This document shows positions 12,401-18,850 of a stretch of DNA of 22,922 bases, piece by piece; position 1 is the stretch's first letter; each line of letters starts with the position of its first letter. The stretch is from IMG/VR virus record IMGVR_UViG_3300025133_000621, positions 1 to 22,922 of that record; one strand, given 5' to 3'. This stretch comes from a virus. The notes below the pieces were generated by a model. The model made no database searches. It was not told the origin of the DNA and saw only the letters and a program-made list of their open reading frames with translations. The position numbers and the translations under genes are program-made.

Positions 12401-12500
12401 AGAAGGCTCTACTGCAGGGACAGGAATTTCTATGCCCCCAAGAGATCAAATAAATACAGGCGGTAAAATACTAGGAAGTCTCCATAGGAACTGCACATGA
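9486..12500 (+). CDS. Polyvalent virion protein with ADP-ribosyltransferase-like domain and C-terminal His/Asn-rich domain
   Basis: This protein has 1004 residues. The start is GTG within GTGA, and an ATG at 9540 with a nearby GGTGGGAG is an alternative start. About residues 280-515 look like an ADP-ribosyltransferase fold of the type found in phage polyvalent proteins. The signs are a first strand with GLHVG (His291), a middle element resembling YINVKTPFVLNTD, then LGFDSIKYKN (residues 477-486), and HSYILF (501-506) followed by Gln510, where H-Y-[EDQ]-type enzymes place the acidic or Gln residue. A second C-terminal domain carries NAIQHA (His864) and HVDRWNNSFG (His901, Asp903, Asn906, Asn907), a pattern reminiscent of DUF6973-like proteins. 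A short Lys/Gly-rich hydrophobic linker lies near residues 740-775. It probably travels in the particle and enters the cell with the DNA; enzymatic activity is unproven. Confidence 0.75.
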   Translation: MSKLLDKLRKKIKIEGGSMGSSNWPSVLVPQAPVEPDERKDKMTGLPYAMQAGGAFEDTEDRIGLASGWAEALRLVGRATRGRGAPSLASDIRPTTKFKIDDDIKDILTELRFRNKDNFIDPYDPSYSTTHLKINNEAEFEKYLLDNENIDLKHFNTLPLEERETLIDIFNVTKSDIKSADDLLGYKRDNVEYHTVPDERYTIAKGEKKSQLLAKLNTELDSVPVEDIEIAKRYADNIPKIDTTTSSPTMTKEEFLEGSIEKEPQYNASFFGNTKHVARLSTKIPRELGLHVGKKGHAETMYIRGSVPRGENIIEEAGIDYYMSFPDVVDEIDAKVLTNNKGVPDELMDTLVQEMSEVNPTIKKIGGTEPILQKGYINVKTPFVLNTDMINWNPSKIFGGFDPEGALKLDEQADILIRALESQTKIPEARAKIIVDKLAEDINSLVAKKDLIEKEGFVGDVYEHSMNVLTREAMQDLGFDSIKYKNIGELARVSEKQAGGHSYILFRDDQFATDFAKDAPFMRQPRTLRKTIPEVQKAYDDLKAGTITSDEYDKIVNNTVYPYEKVPPPETDEAMFKALAEPKRKNLNTPFEEGQEVGLRLDIPAYLSKENSAWVPTIHVNGKPKGHQSTAAIRDVDFTKSVSKKYSTAELAQGVMEGKEKSPFAQMMGKYIDRDAKQNYDAAVEALDSDEWIQVGFDPRRHSFFYDRVTGQPVATAEEVIQVGPLVLAKKATYADRSLYPYATGGKVLRSLGRKQYSLGGKIKNALAKLIGRGPEQQINTFIESVNLNNELVDKGLLGANQRLKYAEWEMTKDKEGSPVPVKDERGYKVPARFLTEEEVRNFDRANIAMGISGNEEAFNAIQHALLGYDNAGLTAPLIQGREILSARKQIELGNDPRTEHVDRWNNSFGINARRRGIPREEFKYTNIVNSLADVDGQGTDSKGRNNIPLQRGVDLIKNIKDVPSDFISRNLEGSTAGTGISMPPRDQINTGGKILGSLHRNCT

Positions 12501-12865
12501 AATACTTCACAGAAGATGAACTGAAATGCTCTCACTGTGGTAAGAGTGGTATGGACTCAAACTTCATGGCTAGAATAGAGGCACTCAGAGAACAGTTGGG
12601 GTTCCCTTTCCCTGTGAACAGTGCTTACCGTTGTCCAGAACACCCCATAGAAGCACGTAAAAGTAAAGCCGGAGCGCACTCTACTGGACACGCAATAGAC
12701 ATTGGGGTACGAGGAGAGAAAGCCCACACGCTATTAGACGCTGCTTTAGAGGCAGGGTTTACTGGCATAGGAATAAATCAGAAAGGAAGTAGCGGTAGAT
12801 TTATACATTTAGATGACATAGAAAATTCAACAGATCGGCCTAGACCGACAGTATGGAGTTATTGA
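12497..12865 (+). CDS. M15-family peptidase, endolysin
   Basis: This protein has 122 residues, and its ATG overlaps the previous stop as ATGA. It belongs to the zinc D-Ala-D-Ala carboxypeptidase/endopeptidase type (M15) that many phages use as endolysin to cut peptidoglycan cross-bridges. Zinc ligands visible are His61 and Asp68 in AHSTGHAID, and His104 in FIHLDD. The substrate-loop element SAYRCPEHP lies at residues 42-50. The N-terminal FTEDELKCSHCGK carries a Cys-x2-Cys pair (Cys11, Cys14) common in this subgroup. Length is normal for a single-domain enzyme. There is no signal peptide, so a holin is needed for access to the wall, and candidates lie downstream. Function is well supported; the exact bond cleaved is not. 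Confidence 0.93.
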   Translation: MKYFTEDELKCSHCGKSGMDSNFMARIEALREQLGFPFPVNSAYRCPEHPIEARKSKAGAHSTGHAIDIGVRGEKAHTLLDAALEAGFTGIGINQKGSSGRFIHLDDIENSTDRPRPTVWSY

Positions 12866-12866
12866 T

Positions 12867-14153
12867 ATGAAATATTTACTACTAATAGGAACATTATTAT
12901 TTAGTTCACTGGCTTATGGAAGCCCCACTTATGTAGATGATGTGGCTAAAATAATAAATAATAATTGTGTTGTGTGTCACCGTGACGGTGGTATTGGCCC
13001 AATGCAGTTTGAAACCTATGACCAAGTACGCCCGTGGAGTCCACTAATACAACTCAAGGTAGCTAGTCGTGAGATGCCGCCCTATGCTTATGATCAAGAT
13101 ATAGGGATACAGCAATTACATGGTGATTGGAGGCTCTCTGAGGCTGATATAGACACGATAGTAGAGTGGGTAGCCACGGGATCAGAGTATGGGGATACGG
13201 ACGTTGTAGTGCAGCCTCCGAGCCTCTCAGACCCAAGCCAGTGGAATTTCTACGGAGACTTTGGAGAGCCTACATTGGTTATACCATCTATACCTATAGA
13301 TATTCCAGCCACAGGAAATGATTTATGGCACAAGCATAATGTAGCCAGTGGATTAACTGAAGACAGATGTATCAAAGCTATTCAAGTCAAGCCTAGAGGT
13401 GATGCTAAGAGTGTAGTACATCACGCCAATAGTTCTGTCACTGTAGATGGTGAGAGATATGGGATGCTAACAGAGTATGCAATGGGCAAGTGGGGAGAGA
13501 TAGTACCAGAGGGTGTATGCCGAACTATTCCGGCTGACTCTGAGATAGCTTGGGATATTCATATGTTCCCCGGAGGTCTTGGAGCAATAGCCCCCGGCAC
13601 AGTTATAGAAGATAACGTAGTAGAGATAGGGCTGTGGCTATATTCTCCAGAGGAATCTAAAGAACTTGCATATGCACAAGACTTAAAGCTTTACAGAATC
13701 AGCCAACAAGAAGATATTGCTATCCCGCCTCACGGCTATAGCATGACGCAGGGCTTTCATTCTTTTGATCATCCTGTTCGTATAGACTCTTGGCAACCTC
13801 ACGGTCATCTTAGGATGAACGCAGCAAGCTTTGAGATATTCTATCCAGACACAGGAATGACAGAGCAGATTAGTCAAGTATCTAACTGGAGTGCTACATG
13901 GCATCACAGTCATATATATGAACCAGACTTTGCACCGCTTCTTCCAACAGGAGCAGTACTAATTCTTAAACAATGGTACGACAACACTAAAGACAACCCA
14001 AATAACCCTGACCCCGATATGTGGGTTGTAGGCGGGAGTAGAACAGGGGATGAAATGACCCATGCTTGGATTGCTGTTACACATCTTGATGAAGAAAAGT
14101 ATCAAGAACTTTTAACCGAAAGAAAGAACAGGAGGATGATTGCGGCACAATGA
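12867..14153 (+). CDS. Secreted cytochrome c / copper type II (PHM-like) monooxygenase fusion
   Basis: This protein has 428 residues; the ATG has GGAG about 9 bases upstream. Residues 1-18 form a classic signal peptide (hydrophobic core, likely cut after AYG), so it should act in the periplasm. A c-type haem site, CVVCH, is at residues 34-38, with Met71 in REMPP as possible axial ligand and an ending (SEADIDTIVEWVATGS) typical of small cytochrome domains. The rest resembles copper type II ascorbate-dependent monooxygenases. His185-His186 and His232 (WDIHMF) would bind the electron-transfer copper. His312-x-His314 (PHGHLRM) and Met397 (DEMTHAW) would bind the catalytic copper. The family element YDNTKDNPNNPDP is present. 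Known relatives hydroxylate C-H bonds; the bacterial fusion's substrate is unknown. It lies between lysis-type genes and overlaps a lipoprotein gene by ATGA. All expected ligands are present, so the protein looks intact. Its presence in a phage is unusual. Confidence 0.88.
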   Translation: MKYLLLIGTLLFSSLAYGSPTYVDDVAKIINNNCVVCHRDGGIGPMQFETYDQVRPWSPLIQLKVASREMPPYAYDQDIGIQQLHGDWRLSEADIDTIVEWVATGSEYGDTDVVVQPPSLSDPSQWNFYGDFGEPTLVIPSIPIDIPATGNDLWHKHNVASGLTEDRCIKAIQVKPRGDAKSVVHHANSSVTVDGERYGMLTEYAMGKWGEIVPEGVCRTIPADSEIAWDIHMFPGGLGAIAPGTVIEDNVVEIGLWLYSPEESKELAYAQDLKLYRISQQEDIAIPPHGYSMTQGFHSFDHPVRIDSWQPHGHLRMNAASFEIFYPDTGMTEQISQVSNWSATWHHSHIYEPDFAPLLPTGAVLILKQWYDNTKDNPNNPDPDMWVVGGSRTGDEMTHAWIAVTHLDEEKYQELLTERKNRRMIAAQ

Positions 14154-14329
14154 AAAATTTAGGGCTAGTTATATTGATACTAATTACGGGATGTAGCGGA
14201 AGTGAAATAGCTTTACAAATACAAGAATATCCTGAGTGGAATTGGGTAAATCAAAATGTGTTTATGCACAATGTGAGAACTTGTAGAAGTATGGATATAT
14301 GCGCTGCTGAACATTTATTCATTAGATAA
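14150..14329 (+). CDS. Small lipoprotein coupled to the monooxygenase
   Basis: This is a 59-residue gene whose ATG overlaps the previous stop as ATGA. The N-terminus MKNLGLVILILITGC is a lipoprotein signal peptide with lipobox I-T-G-C, so Cys15 would be lipidated and the mature protein anchored to a membrane facing the periplasm. The mature part (45 residues) is rich in aromatic and polar residues and has two further cysteines, Cys45 and Cys51, which could form a disulfide or bind metal. It contains only one proline, unlike Rz1-type spanins. Coupling to the cytochrome-monooxygenase suggests a partner role or shared acquisition. A superinfection-exclusion lipoprotein is an alternative. I do not recognise a family. 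Confidence 0.72.
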   Translation: MKNLGLVILILITGCSGSEIALQIQEYPEWNWVNQNVFMHNVRTCRSMDICAAEHLFIR

Positions 14330-14342
14330 TTAGGGGGCAGTA

Positions 14343-14813
14343 ATGATTGAAGTAACAGTAGCTATTGCTGCTGCTAGTCGTGCCGTAACGCTTATAAAAA
14401 AAGGATTAAGTTTAGGAAAGGATACACAAGAATTAAGCTCTCAATTTGCACAGTTCTTTGATGCAAAAGATAAGATTGATAAAGCTAAAGCTGATGCAAC
14501 TAACGCTCCTTTAGGTAAGAAGGTATTTGCGGCTCAATCTGTGGAGGCATATGCACTAGAAGTAGCACTGGCAGAACATAAAGCTAAAGAACTTGAAAAA
14601 CAATTAAGAGAACTTTTTGTATATAGTGGTCAGGCTGATGTTTATAGTTCCATGATGAGAGCCAGACAACAAGAACGTCAAAGACGATTACAAGTGGCTA
14701 GAGAAATAGCCAAACAGAAAAAATTTATATTTGATTTAGGTTTGATAGGAGTTATATTTACAACTGTAATAGTACTAGTAGCCTTTTCAATATACGCAAT
14801 AGCAGGAGTATAA
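14343..14813 (+). CDS. Helical protein with C-terminal membrane anchor
   Basis: This protein has 156 residues. The ATG follows AGGGGGCAGTA. Residues 1-130 are Ala/Lys/Glu/Gln-rich helical sequence with probable coiled coil (about residues 75-130, ending in a strongly basic, Arg/Gln-rich helix). The last 25 residues form one clear transmembrane helix (LGLIGVIFTTVIVLVAFSIY). The topology, soluble helical body followed by a C-terminal anchor, is the reverse of the usual inner-membrane spanin. It lies in the late module between the lipoprotein and two small genes. It may take part in lysis or be a virion-associated membrane protein. No named family is recognised. Confidence 0.75.
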   Translation: MIEVTVAIAAASRAVTLIKKGLSLGKDTQELSSQFAQFFDAKDKIDKAKADATNAPLGKKVFAAQSVEAYALEVALAEHKAKELEKQLRELFVYSGQADVYSSMMRARQQERQRRLQVAREIAKQKKFIFDLGLIGVIFTTVIVLVAFSIYAIAGV

Positions 14814-15004: not shown

Positions 15005-15331
15005 ATGAACGCAAAGAAGTTAGAACTACAATCTAAGTACGAGCAGTTTGATCTAGATAAAGATGGGATTGTAAGTGATGAAGAAATAGATCGTGCTAAA
15101 GAAATGATTGACTTAGAGCTAAGAGAAGAGAAATCAGAAGCTCAAAAGTTAATGGCATGGTTAGCTATAATTGTTATGACAGTTACTACTATAGTATTGT
15201 TCACTCCCATTATTCCAGACAGCAGAGTGAACGCCCTTTCCGACCTATTAGGTTTATTTTATTTCTCATTGTGCGGAATTGTAGGTACTTATATGGGTGC
15301 TACAGCTTTTATGCACAAGCCTAGTAAATAA
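15005..15331 (+). CDS. Two-helix membrane protein with EF-hand loop, candidate holin
   Basis: This protein has 108 residues. Residues 17-28 form a perfect EF-hand calcium loop (DLDKDGIVSDEE: Asp at 1, 3 and 5, Gly at 6, Glu at 12), preceded and followed by charged helices as in a real EF-hand. Two transmembrane segments follow, about residues 49-70 and 78-102, separated by a short loop with PDSR. A small protein with two membrane helices close to an endolysin gene is the usual profile of a phage holin, and no better candidate lies in the window, so I infer a holin. The cytoplasmic or periplasmic side of the EF-hand cannot be decided. It is the last gene of the plus-strand operon. Confidence 0.72.
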   Translation: MNAKKLELQSKYEQFDLDKDGIVSDEEIDRAKEMIDLELREEKSEAQKLMAWLAIIVMTVTTIVLFTPIIPDSRVNALSDLLGLFYFSLCGIVGTYMGATAFMHKPSK

Positions 15332-15556: not shown

Positions 15557-16525
15557 CTACACGCTTGCAAAGTTTATGGTTTCTACATTTCCTTTCAACC
15601 CTGCCTTCATATAGGTAGTGGCTCTCCCTTCAAAAAAGTTTTGATGTTCTACTCCTAAGACATCATCTAGCCATAACAGAGGATTATCGCTTACTTTAAA
15701 GTTAGGCTTCAGTCCTAACTGCAACAACCTTCTGTCTGCTATATACCTTATATACTCTTTCATTTCATATTTTGTTAGTCCCTGCATGTCTCCCATTTCA
15801 AATACTAAATCTAAAAACTTATCTTCCAATTTTACCATCTCCCTACAGACCTGATAGATTTCTTTTTTAAAATTATCTGTCCACATATCTACATTCTCTT
15901 TTATAAATTCTCTAAAGAGCTTTGTCATTGCTTCAACATGAAGTGATTCATCCCTTATGCTATAAGTAACTATCTGACCCATGCCTTTCATTTTACCAAA
16001 GCGAGGAAAGTTTAAGAGTATAGCAAAGCTACTAAAGAGTTGTAGCCCCTCAGTAAAGGCTGAATAGATTGCCAAGTTCTTAGCTATAGATTCTTTATTA
16101 TTAAGTTTAAGAGGTGACTTCCTTATATAATCATGCTTATCAGCCATCGCCTCATACTCAGCAAATGCTTTATACTCAGTCTCAGGCATCCCCACAGTAT
16201 CTAAAAGAAGACTATAGGCGTGTTGATGAATTGATTCCATATTAGCAAAAGAACACATCATCATTCTTGCTTCTGGATTTTTAAACACACGCATATATTT
16301 ATCTATATAACCAGACGCTACATCTACATCAGACTGTGTAAACAATCTGAATATCTGACTCAATAAATTCTTTTCGGGCTTGCTCATGTCTTGCCAATCT
16401 TTAACATCATTATGTAAGGGTACATCTTCTGGCAACCATATCATTTGATTCTGTTGCACGTAGTAATCGAACATCCACGGATAATCAAAAGGCTTATAAT
16501 AGTCTCTAGTTGATAACAAACTCAT
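15557..16525 (-). CDS. nrdB: Class Ia ribonucleotide reductase, small (radical) subunit
   Basis: This protein has 322 residues. It houses the di-iron centre and tyrosyl radical that start ribonucleotide reduction in the large subunit, giving dNTPs for phage replication. All six metal ligands are visible with the spacing of E. coli R2: Asp66, Glu97, His100, Glu159, Glu193 and His196. The radical tyrosine is Tyr104 in ESIHQHAY. The C-terminal region contains the usual FFEGRATTY and ends in a short tail (INFASV) that should bind NrdA. Length is slightly shorter than in E. coli, which is normal for phage forms. It is separated from nrdA by two small genes in the same operon. Confidence 0.96.
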   Translation of the reverse strand: MSLLSTRDYYKPFDYPWMFDYYVQQNQMIWLPEDVPLHNDVKDWQDMSKPEKNLLSQIFRLFTQSDVDVASGYIDKYMRVFKNPEARMMMCSFANMESIHQHAYSLLLDTVGMPETEYKAFAEYEAMADKHDYIRKSPLKLNNKESIAKNLAIYSAFTEGLQLFSSFAILLNFPRFGKMKGMGQIVTYSIRDESLHVEAMTKLFREFIKENVDMWTDNFKKEIYQVCREMVKLEDKFLDLVFEMGDMQGLTKYEMKEYIRYIADRRLLQLGLKPNFKVSDNPLLWLDDVLGVEHQNFFEGRATTYMKAGLKGNVETINFASV

Positions 16526-16526
16526 T

Positions 16527-16790
16527 CTACTGCTCCTCTTTTCTTTTAATTTTGTTATGCAAATACATGGCTGACCAACAGCCTAAAACTGCACCAGCGG
16601 CTAGTTTCCATACTACATCCAAGCTTGCGCCTAGTTGTACTATATTAATAATAATATATACTTCTGTAAAGGCCATAGCTAAACTAAAGATAGGCACAAA
16701 TAGATAATCATTAAATGCAACATTTCTTTGTTGGAAGGCTTTAACGAATACCGAAATATAACTAGCTAGAATTAGTGTCATCAAACTCAT
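16527..16790 (-). CDS. Small membrane protein between nrdA and nrdB
   Basis: This protein has 87 residues, with three probable membrane segments: near residues 3-18, 28-52 and 58-78. A positively charged C-terminus (NKIKRKEEQ) follows and should lie in the cytoplasm. A GGGAG lies only one base before the ATG at 16790 but 10 bases before a second ATG at 16781, so translation may begin there (84 residues). It overlaps the upstream gene by 29 bases and ends one base before nrdB. Function is unknown; its place in a nucleotide-metabolism operon does not by itself imply a role in it. A small early membrane protein that modifies the host envelope is possible. Confidence 0.7.
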   Translation of the reverse strand: MSLMTLILASYISVFVKAFQQRNVAFNDYLFVPIFSLAMAFTEVYIIINIVQLGASLDVVWKLAAGAVLGCWSAMYLHNKIKRKEEQ

Positions 16791-17028
16791 ACTCCCAATA
16801 ATCTATAATCATACCTTTTGGTACAACCATTATAGCATTTACATATTCTTTATCTTTATCGTTATGATAAATATCAGTCGAAAGAATAATTTCGTTCTCA
16901 TTGTCTGCTACTAACCAGCCGACTGTTGAGCGTAGTATAGGTTTTAATTTCTTTGCATCAACAACCAGAACATCTTGTGTATCTATCCAAGCATCTTCCC
17001 ATTTTATCTCTACAACTTTAGCCTTCAC
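16762..17028 (-). CDS. Conserved-looking small phage protein of unknown function
   Basis: This protein has 88 residues. Its GTG start lies 11 bases inside the end of nrdA, and the gene overlaps the next one by 29 bases. It is mainly beta-strand-like, with VEIKWEDAW near the start, LKPILRSTVGWLVADNE in the middle and an ending MIIDYWEYEF. It resembles short hypothetical proteins common in marine phages (from memory, not searched). There is no cysteine, signal peptide or membrane segment. Tight overlap on both sides supports translational coupling. I cannot assign a function. Confidence 0.72.
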   Translation of the reverse strand: MKAKVVEIKWEDAWIDTQDVLVVDAKKLKPILRSTVGWLVADNENEIILSTDIYHNDKDKEYVNAIMVVPKGMIIDYWEYEFDDTNSS

Positions 17029-18850
17029 AACTTAGACACCCTTCTTCATCTAATTTTATCCGGGGTATTTTTATGTTCACGTTTTCTGTCCCTCTCGCAG
17101 AATCAGAACGTAAGTAGTACAAAGATTTTAGTTTGTTTGCCCCCGCCCAATGAACATCATTAACGTACTGCAAAAAATCATTGTGGGTTTCTTGAGAAGC
17201 ATTGTGATCTGGTGGTTTGAAAAATAAATTAACGCTCTGACTTTGACAAATGTATTTCTGTCTCTGTTCTGCGTGTTCTATTATCCATATTTGATTTATT
17301 TCGGGAGCAGTTTTAAATACTTCTTTCTGCTCATCAGATAATATATCTAGATGTTGAACTGATCCTTCATGGGCTACAATGTCCTTCCAGATTTCTTCTA
17401 TTTTCTTTTTAGTAGGCACAAGCTCCAATAAAAGATCATCAAGATATTTATTCTTGACTTTAAAACTTCCTGTTAAAGTTTTGTGTGTATAAACATTAGC
17501 CCTATTAGGCTCTATAGAGGGGCTTGTACCGCCACATATAATAGAACTAGAGGCGTTAGGGGCAACTGCAAGTAAATGTGCATTGCGCCTTCCGCTTCCC
17601 TTCATGTCTGGACACTCTCCACGATCTTCGGCTAGTTGTCTTGTAGCCGCAGATGCTCTATCCTTTATAAAAGAGAATGCTTTGTTATTAAAAGAGGAAG
17701 CCCACATACTTTCAAATGCAATGTTATTTTTTTGTAGGTAACTATGGAACCCCATTGCTCCTAAACCTATAGACCTTTCTCTCATGGCTGAGAAAACAGC
17801 TTTAGAATAACCAGCTTGATCTTTGACTCCATCAATAAAATTCTGGAGTACATTGTCTAGCATAGTTATGAGATCAGATATGAAACTGTCTTCTTTAGAC
17901 CACTCATCAAAGTGTTCTAGGTTTACACTAGACAGACAACAAACCGCCGTTCTCTCTTCGTTTGTAGGTAAGATTATCTCAGAACATAAATTACTCTGTC
18001 TTATTTCTAGTCCTATCCTTTTCTGTTCTTCTGGTAAAGCCTCATTACATATATCTAAATTAACAAGGTAAGGTTCACCAGTTTCCATTCTTGTTTGAAT
18101 AAGTTGGAACCACAGGTCACGGGCTAAGACTGTCTTGACTGCCGTGTTAGTCTTGGGATCGATTAATCTCCACTCTTTATCTAGCTTTACTGCGTTTAAA
18201 AACTCATTCGATATGTTAATAGCATTATGAATGTTCAAACATTTTCTATTTAAATCCCCGCCTGTAGTCTTACGCATGTTTATAAACTCTTCTACTTCGG
18301 GATGGGAGATGTCTGTGTAAGCCGCATAGCTCCCTCTCCTTGTTACGCCCTGATTAAAGGCTAACATCTGAGAGTCTACAACGTGCATGAAGGGGATAGA
18401 ACCAGTAGACTTAGAACCGTTAGCAGTGTCCACACCGTTGCTCCGAACAGCGCCCCAACATCCACCGATGCCTCCACCTCCACTCGCGAGCCATATGTTC
18501 TCATCATAGTGGCTAGATAAACCAGTGCGGGAATCAGGAACAAAATTAAGAAAGCAACTGATAGGTAAGCCACGGCTAGTTCCCCCGTTACTAAGGATAG
18601 GAGTGCTAAACATGAACCAGAACCTACTAGCATACGAATAAAGTCGCTGTGCAAGATCATAATCAGTATGTCCTTTGTAAGTAGAGCCAAAAATACTGGC
18701 ACGAGCAAAAGCTTCTTGAGCATGAGTTTCATTCTCCCAAAAATATCTATCTTTTAATGTAGACAAAGCAAAAGAATCTAAATATTCTTCTGTCTCATAG
18801 TCTATCTTGATTCCTAAATAATCCTGTCTACCTATTTTGTTTAATGTCAT
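17018..18850 (-). CDS. nrdA: Class Ia ribonucleotide reductase, large (catalytic) subunit
   Basis: This protein has 610 residues. It reduces ribonucleoside diphosphates to deoxy forms with NrdB. Catalytic Asn287, Cys289 and Glu291 are in NLCSE. The redox pair is Cys99 (PISCF) and Cys304 (TAVCC). The loop ASGGGGIGGCWG and a C-terminal Cys-x2-Cys (GCLSCEG) for reactivation by thioredoxin are present. At 610 residues it is much shorter than E. coli NrdA (about 760), and the N-terminus enters the core domain directly with no ATP-cone, so dATP feedback through that domain is absent. This is common for phage enzymes. No thioredoxin or glutaredoxin gene is seen in the window, so a host reductant may be used. 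Identity is certain. Confidence 0.97.
   Translation of the reverse strand: MTLNKIGRQDYLGIKIDYETEEYLDSFALSTLKDRYFWENETHAQEAFARASIFGSTYKGHTDYDLAQRLYSYASRFWFMFSTPILSNGGTSRGLPISCFLNFVPDSRTGLSSHYDENIWLASGGGGIGGCWGAVRSNGVDTANGSKSTGSIPFMHVVDSQMLAFNQGVTRRGSYAAYTDISHPEVEEFINMRKTTGGDLNRKCLNIHNAINISNEFLNAVKLDKEWRLIDPKTNTAVKTVLARDLWFQLIQTRMETGEPYLVNLDICNEALPEEQKRIGLEIRQSNLCSEIILPTNEERTAVCCLSSVNLEHFDEWSKEDSFISDLITMLDNVLQNFIDGVKDQAGYSKAVFSAMRERSIGLGAMGFHSYLQKNNIAFESMWASSFNNKAFSFIKDRASAATRQLAEDRGECPDMKGSGRRNAHLLAVAPNASSSIICGGTSPSIEPNRANVYTHKTLTGSFKVKNKYLDDLLLELVPTKKKIEEIWKDIVAHEGSVQHLDILSDEQKEVFKTAPEINQIWIIEHAEQRQKYICQSQSVNLFFKPPDHNASQETHNDFLQYVNDVHWAGANKLKSLYYLRSDSARGTENVNIKIPRIKLDEEGCLSCEG

Follow-up and report, generated by a model that had tools for sequence, protein, structure and literature searches.

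What would a phage gain from a gene that appears to join a periplasmic cytochrome c to a copper type II monooxygenase, a kind of enzyme mainly known from animal hormone and neurotransmitter synthesis? This question is raised by gene A of the window, the whole stretch of 22,922 nucleotides of viral DNA (IMG/VR record IMGVR_UViG_3300025133_000621) that was analysed here. An earlier note on this DNA had described a signal peptide, the haem motif CVVCH at residues 34-38 and the copper ligands His185, His186, His232, His312, His314 and Met397, all of which were found in place. In the following list of the gene and its sites, B is a second cytochrome c-PHM paralogue found in phages and C a divergent bacterial one.

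12867-14153, plus strand: gene A (428 aa), with signal peptide, cytochrome c domain and predicted PHM-like two-copper monooxygenase domain
12867-12920, plus strand: Sec signal peptide, aa 1-18, MKYLLLIGTLLFSSLAYG, from direct reading of the sequence; model helix 2-16
12930-13178, plus strand: c-type cytochrome domain, aa 22-104; Pfam Cytochrom_C at 25-104, E 9e-4; model helices 22-33, 51-66 and 92-103
12966-12980, plus strand: CVVCH haem-c attachment motif, aa 34-38; CxxCH in all alignment rows covering the site
13074-13076, plus strand: Met70, by its putative role likely the axial (sixth) haem ligand; Met in all rows covering the site
13260-14102, plus strand: PHM-like domain, aa 132-412; model residues 135-408 aligned by VIA-align onto PHM chain residues 62-325
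13419-13424, plus strand: His185-His186, CuH-site ligands, invariant in 72/72 rows
13560-13562, plus strand: His232, third CuH-site ligand, in 46/46 A-type rows and 25/26 others (one gap)
13800-13808, plus strand: His312-x-His314, CuM-site ligands, in 46/46 A-type rows; retained in phage B, lost in bacterial paralogue C
13902-13913, plus strand: A-specific WHHSH cluster (His346, 347, 349), in 46/46 A rows and not in B or C
14055-14057, plus strand: Met397, CuM-site thioether ligand by its offset to PHM Met314; Met in all rows covering the site

With a CxxCH motif behind a signal peptide, the product is predicted to be an exported c-type cytochrome that would be loaded with haem; its Pfam Cytochrom_C score of 21.0 bits is just under the cut-off of 21.3. 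The copper half matched neither the Pfam Cu2 monooxygenase families nor NCBIfam, PHROGs or PDB sequences, and PHM in the PDB was not found by sequence with any of three profiles tried. Its identification was therefore made via the fold, the invariant ligands and intermediate sequences. Low-scoring matches to Aer2 and SMC3 in the PDB profile searches were rejected as unrelated.

A first AlphaFold2 model, built with 26 close viral homologues as input, was poor (pLDDT 63), and even this model retrieved PHM with Foldseek. A second model, for which 72 diverse alignment rows including bacterial homologues and paralogues were used, reached a pLDDT of 87.4 and a pTM of 0.85. Its first 31 Foldseek matches in the PDB were all PHM or dopamine beta-hydroxylase, far beyond chance, and VIA-align superposed it on PHM with a Z of 19.8 and an rmsd of 2.6 Å over 241 residues; the next fold family, PNGase, reached only a Z of 8.4. 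The reading of the gene as a PHM-like two-copper monooxygenase, for which two beta-sandwiches in a predicted structure had been named as the check, is thus borne out by the model. The offset between Met397 and PHM Met314 (83) equals that at the end of the alignment (408-325), and the alignment offsets indicate that the CuM ligands of A are probably structurally equivalent to those of PHM. The intermediate sequences are bacterial paralogues in the genomes G002 and G003, which A matches at about E 1e-35 and which, as the same ORFs, exceed the Pfam Cu2_monoox_C cut-off. With this fold in the model and the CuH and CuM ligands in all A rows of the alignment, A is predicted to belong to the copper type II monooxygenase superfamily (PHM/DBM), an assignment made at superfamily level that leaves PHM proper (peptide amidation) unclaimed. 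Like PHM and dopamine beta-hydroxylase, A has the two-sandwich fold and the six ligands in the same order (HH...H...HxH...M); it differs from them in its low identity (about 14%), the fused N-terminal haem-c domain, the extra histidine cluster and in being missed by Pfam. In the alignment, A-type sequences further share H399, H406 and C168/C218, which are absent from B and C.

The six copper ligands are invariant in 26/26 viral homologues and in all 46 A-type rows of the 72-row alignment, bacterial homologues included. Values of dN/dS between the window copy and its relatives range from 0.054 to 0.093, and the median across 38 pairs of phage A copies is 0.078. These values support strong purifying selection on A and agree with the earlier suggestion of a working gene under selection.

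The genes around A in the window are as follows.

12497-12865, plus strand: M15 peptidase/endolysin (Pfam Peptidase_M15_3, 7.7e-14; PHROG endolysin, 2.1e-28)
14150-14329, plus strand: lipoprotein-like ORF of 59 aa that overlaps the stop codon of A; shorter than the ORF-list cut-off
14343-14813, plus strand: small membrane protein, matching PHROG 32327; present close to A in 40 phage loci with differing backgrounds
15557-18850, minus strand: convergent ribonucleotide reductase operon (NrdB, NrdA), used in the synteny test

A starts one base past the stop of the M15 peptidase gene and lies where the structural module ends, opposite the ribonucleotide reductase operon that converges on it, and this gene order is common to some 40 viral contigs. 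For the synteny test, contigs with readable flanks were retrieved via the reductase small subunit. At a reductase identity of at least 84%, A occupies the same slot beside the reductase operon in 10/10 contigs; at 77-83%, it does so in only 4 of about 33, most of the others being without A and several keeping the M15 gene. A therefore appears to be core to the subclade of the window phage and accessory beyond it. The conserved slot in all ten relatives and the dozens of contigs rule out a chimera or bacterial contamination, which the earlier note had wanted checked. Three side observations concern this region. The 59-aa ORF at 14150-14329 has a lipobox (LITGC) and is possibly part of a spanin. 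Homologues of the membrane protein at 14343-14813 occur near A in unrelated phage backgrounds, e.g., in L028, L163 and L224. The product of positions 15005-15331, a small membrane protein, gave a weak EF-hand-like match, and its counterparts in related phages are up to 100% identical.

A profile scan for the same fusion in viral metagenomes, a search that had been proposed earlier, found relatives of A in 260 IMG/VR stretches, near-identical contigs being included in this and the other counts. The backgrounds comprise HTVC103P-like podoviruses, a second podovirus-like type (L028) and T4-like phages, whose A contigs of up to about 340 kb carry tail-fibre, baseplate-lysozyme, gp32-like, clamp-loader and T4-type polymerase genes. 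The statement that no phage is known with this enzyme thus stands for cultured phages and the papers searched, but it falls for uncultured phages, which carry A widely: no A was found in cultured phages or plasmids, and nothing relevant on phage PHM, auxiliary copper type II monooxygenases or viral cytochrome c was found in the literature searched, which left out subscription papers and preprints. As a predicted haem-copper monooxygenase, A belongs to a known superfamily, and its phage setting is absent from that literature. Among the viral proteins in BFVD, none is PHM-like (best TM about 0.25), an absence that is no proof. Two contigs that are labelled as bacterial, L070 (335 kb, Neomarinimicrobiota MAG) and L086 (Flavobacteriales MAG), have phage-like neighbours of A and were for this reason treated as phage contigs, so that they do not widen the bacterial range of A. 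The phage-like genes on L070 and L086 are clamp loader, virion protein, PhoH and ThyX genes as well as Hsp20 and MazG-like genes. In T4-like phages, IscU- or IscA-like Fe-S assembly genes lie near A or A-B (e.g., L043, 9256-9627), and iscA homologues were seen in 25 loci.

Among cultured phages, the DNA polymerase closest to that of the window phage group is found in pelagiphage HTVC115P (52%), in which no PHM gene is annotated and none was detected by tblastn. The window phage and HTVC103P-type pelagiphages, compared in polymerase and layout, share 50-52% polymerase identity and a ribonucleotide reductase operon convergent on the structural module; the late module of HTVC115P, unlike that of the window phage, ends in an Hsp20 gene. 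Uncultured relatives, the 'group IV' genomes with unknown hosts, have been described (PMC8528129).

Close homologues of A in bacteria are restricted to one family. They were found in 88/119 genomes of Pseudohongiellaceae, a family name that is based on the record labels Pseudohongiella and OM182, in 6/245 genomes sampled from the order, all six of them Pseudohongiellaceae, and in 1/369 genomes sampled from the class, the single one being the centre of the sample itself. Pseudohongiellaceae genomes have 12-22 members of the cytochrome c-PHM family, and the A genes lie in tandem arrays, often together with the divergent redoxin-cytochrome c-PHM-like paralogue C, in which the His-x-His of the CuM site is lost. 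Phage A is 65-76% identical to the A-type copies of this family and has the same architecture; judged by this comparison, Pseudohongiellaceae are evidently the donor family. The close homologues further suggest, short of proof, that the phages now infect members of this family, which offers a candidate host family for the HTVC103P-like phage group, whose hosts were unknown. HTCC2089 and Pseudohongiellaceae are little-studied sister families; HTCC2089 encodes many oxygenases, and a breakdown of hydrocarbons or of secondary metabolites from algae is suspected (PMC8371827).

The phage copies differ from the paralogues of the family in forming mainly one deep clade. In the tree, a supported group unites 37 phage rows and contains no more than 3 bacterial ones, and the window A belongs to a 10-row podovirus clade with a support of 99; L180, L207 and L218 make up a phage group of their own that is embedded in bacterial copies, and the placement of L060 is loose. 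This grouping suggests an old capture that spread among phages and at least one later capture. Slot, phylogeny and dN/dS together support A being an auxiliary metabolic gene, i.e., probably host-derived, fixed in the phage genome and selected.

Among the proteins encoded beside bacterial A are propellers of the NHL/SMP-30 kind, a cupin, an MFS transporter and a dehydrogenase of GMC type, the GMC label being read from sequence. In addition, a conserved secreted protein without a Pfam match (L071, 3677-4609, and relatives) is encoded beside the A arrays in 49/79 bacterial loci, and an HTH-NACHT/NB-ARC-TPR protein, possibly a regulator, lies beside them in L071 (6398-9082) and about 20 bacterial loci.

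In many phages, A does not occur alone. The second cytochrome c-PHM paralogue, B, was found in 123 viral stretches by the scan, in T4-like contigs and some podoviruses, and in each of the 71 loci whose upstream sequence could be read, A immediately precedes B; 45 of the 66 measured gaps between the two genes are overlaps. B keeps the full ligand set, and its motifs (HHML, LQLHY, HMHFRGK and SEDEM) are more PHM-like. In about 12 loci, a gene for a free class-I-like cytochrome c lies between A and B. The linkage of A and B and the free cytochrome c in some loci suggest that A and B act jointly. The near-complete podovirus records of about 52-53 kb that are most like the window have A, and B was not found in them; the window phage, too, seems to have A alone.

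At 54%, the bacterial proteins nearest to phage B are of the redoxin-cytochrome c-PHM type and have kept the CuM site intact, and, as far as the sampled genomes indicate, phage B looks like bacterial B minus the redoxin domain. Within the 11-12 kb read, no A was found beside bacterial B, which is located at separate loci. Since phage B resembles bacterial B without redoxin and seems to derive from a locus separate from A, the A-B operon looks phage-assembled; joining the two genes in one operon sets the phages apart from the bacterial family. The B paralogue behind A, the loci with a free cytochrome c, the redoxin-less B and the restriction of close A homologues to one family are new. It is tempting to speculate that phages have put together a redox operon of their own for the periplasm, A - (free cytochrome c) - B, with genes from different host loci, that A and B would make up a single heteromeric oxygenase served by its own electron carrier, and that A-only phages, such as that of the window, would use a host B or C partner. 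We put this forward only tentatively and think it somewhat more likely wrong than right; we found no description of such an enzyme system from phages or from bacteria. Two further observations concern these loci. The free cytochromes c (CAACH or CSACH, 101-128 aa), which are found in L155, L157, L158, L162, L176, L182, L204, L205, L209, L217 (5607-5972) and L222, end at or near the start of B. Some A-B phages (L048, 4204-4926, and L173) carry a ferredoxin-NADP reductase-like gene that resembles a gene flanking bacterial B (L228-L230).

What, then, could A do for the phage? The best explanation, and in our judgement probably the right one, is that A is a host-derived auxiliary metabolic gene that extends the periplasmic C-H hydroxylation of the host with electrons supplied via the built-in haem. 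In this scheme, the loading with copper and haem, the route of the electrons, the hydroxylation with its substrate and the gain for the phage are predictions, as follows. The product would be exported to the periplasm, where the c-type maturation system of the host would attach haem to the N-terminal domain and the C-terminal domain would bind two coppers. O2 and two electrons would then be used for the C-H hydroxylation of a small substrate, as in PHM and dopamine beta-hydroxylase, with the fused haem, instead of ascorbate, delivering the electrons singly from the respiratory chain. During infection, this would raise the capacity of a step of periplasmic oxidation for which the host family has 12-22 paralogues, thereby keeping the flow of carbon or energy up to lysis; the window phage, seemingly with A alone, would rely on a host partner. 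Counted against this explanation are the position of A in a seemingly late or lysis-proximal cluster, which is also compatible with an envelope role, the lack of B in the closest near-complete phages and the finding that bacterial B is not beside A.

A could instead hydroxylate a component of the cell envelope late in infection, thereby aiding lysis or blocking superinfection. This fits the M15 endolysin gene one base upstream, the lipoprotein-like ORF that overlaps A, the small membrane protein near A in 40 phage loci and the lysozyme gene often nearby in T4-like loci. However, the bacterial relatives cluster with transporters, dehydrogenases and propeller proteins and without lysis genes, and several phage loci have neighbours unrelated to lysis (IscA, UvsE, ThyX), which makes such a role rather unlikely. 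Given the transporter, propellers, cupin and dehydrogenases beside bacterial A, the catabolism of a metabolite seems more likely than envelope modification.

A different chemistry is conceivable, in which A, like PHM proper, would introduce its hydroxyl group at the alpha-carbon of a glycine-like or N-alkyl moiety and a PAL-like NHL propeller of the host would complete the cleavage, so that N-acylglycines, peptides or other such nitrogen compounds would be turned over faster. Propellers of the NHL and SMP-30-like kinds turn up repeatedly beside bacterial A, and one NHL propeller (L077) matches PAL among NHL proteins (3fvz, E 1.9e-12), but the NHL domains of TRIM71 outscore PAL for this protein, and propellers are common proteins that are nevertheless present in only a minority of the loci. 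In the phage loci, no PAL-like propeller, bacterial dehydrogenase or MFS transporter was detected, and we regard this variant as unlikely.

It has also to be considered whether A merely serves to discharge electrons of the periplasm onto O2 (or to form H2O2) or to sequester copper, shifting the redox state of the host with no specific biosynthetic or catabolic role. The haem-copper architecture, the additional histidines 346/347/349 conserved in A only and the free cytochrome c of some phage operons would all suit such a sink; an uncoupled turnover, however, would presumably need no CuM, and the full PHM ligand set including this substrate site is kept under strong purifying selection, so that we think this improbable. 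That A is a functionless host fragment or an assembly chimera is hardly credible: its GC3 (0.35) exceeds that of the structural genes (0.18-0.20), but equals that of the adjoining M15 gene (0.36), and the slot shared by 10/10 close relatives, the 260 viral stretches and a dN/dS below 0.1 all speak against it.

The PHM fold, equipped with a built-in haem, thus occurs widely among uncultured phages and has multiplied strongly in a single family of environmental bacteria, and it can now be tested which oxidation is valuable enough during infection for phages to carry a haem-copper enzyme for it, together with a partner and, in some cases, an electron carrier. A copper-dependent oxidation outside the cytoplasm is also the process to which the phage-carried gene amoC is tied. 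pmoC and amoC each encode just one membrane subunit of a complex of the host, with a fold unrelated to that of A, which, unlike them, has its own complete two-copper ligand set and a haem motif. The phage auxiliary gene pmoC has likewise been tied to copper-dependent oxidation outside the cytoplasm (PMC7674155).
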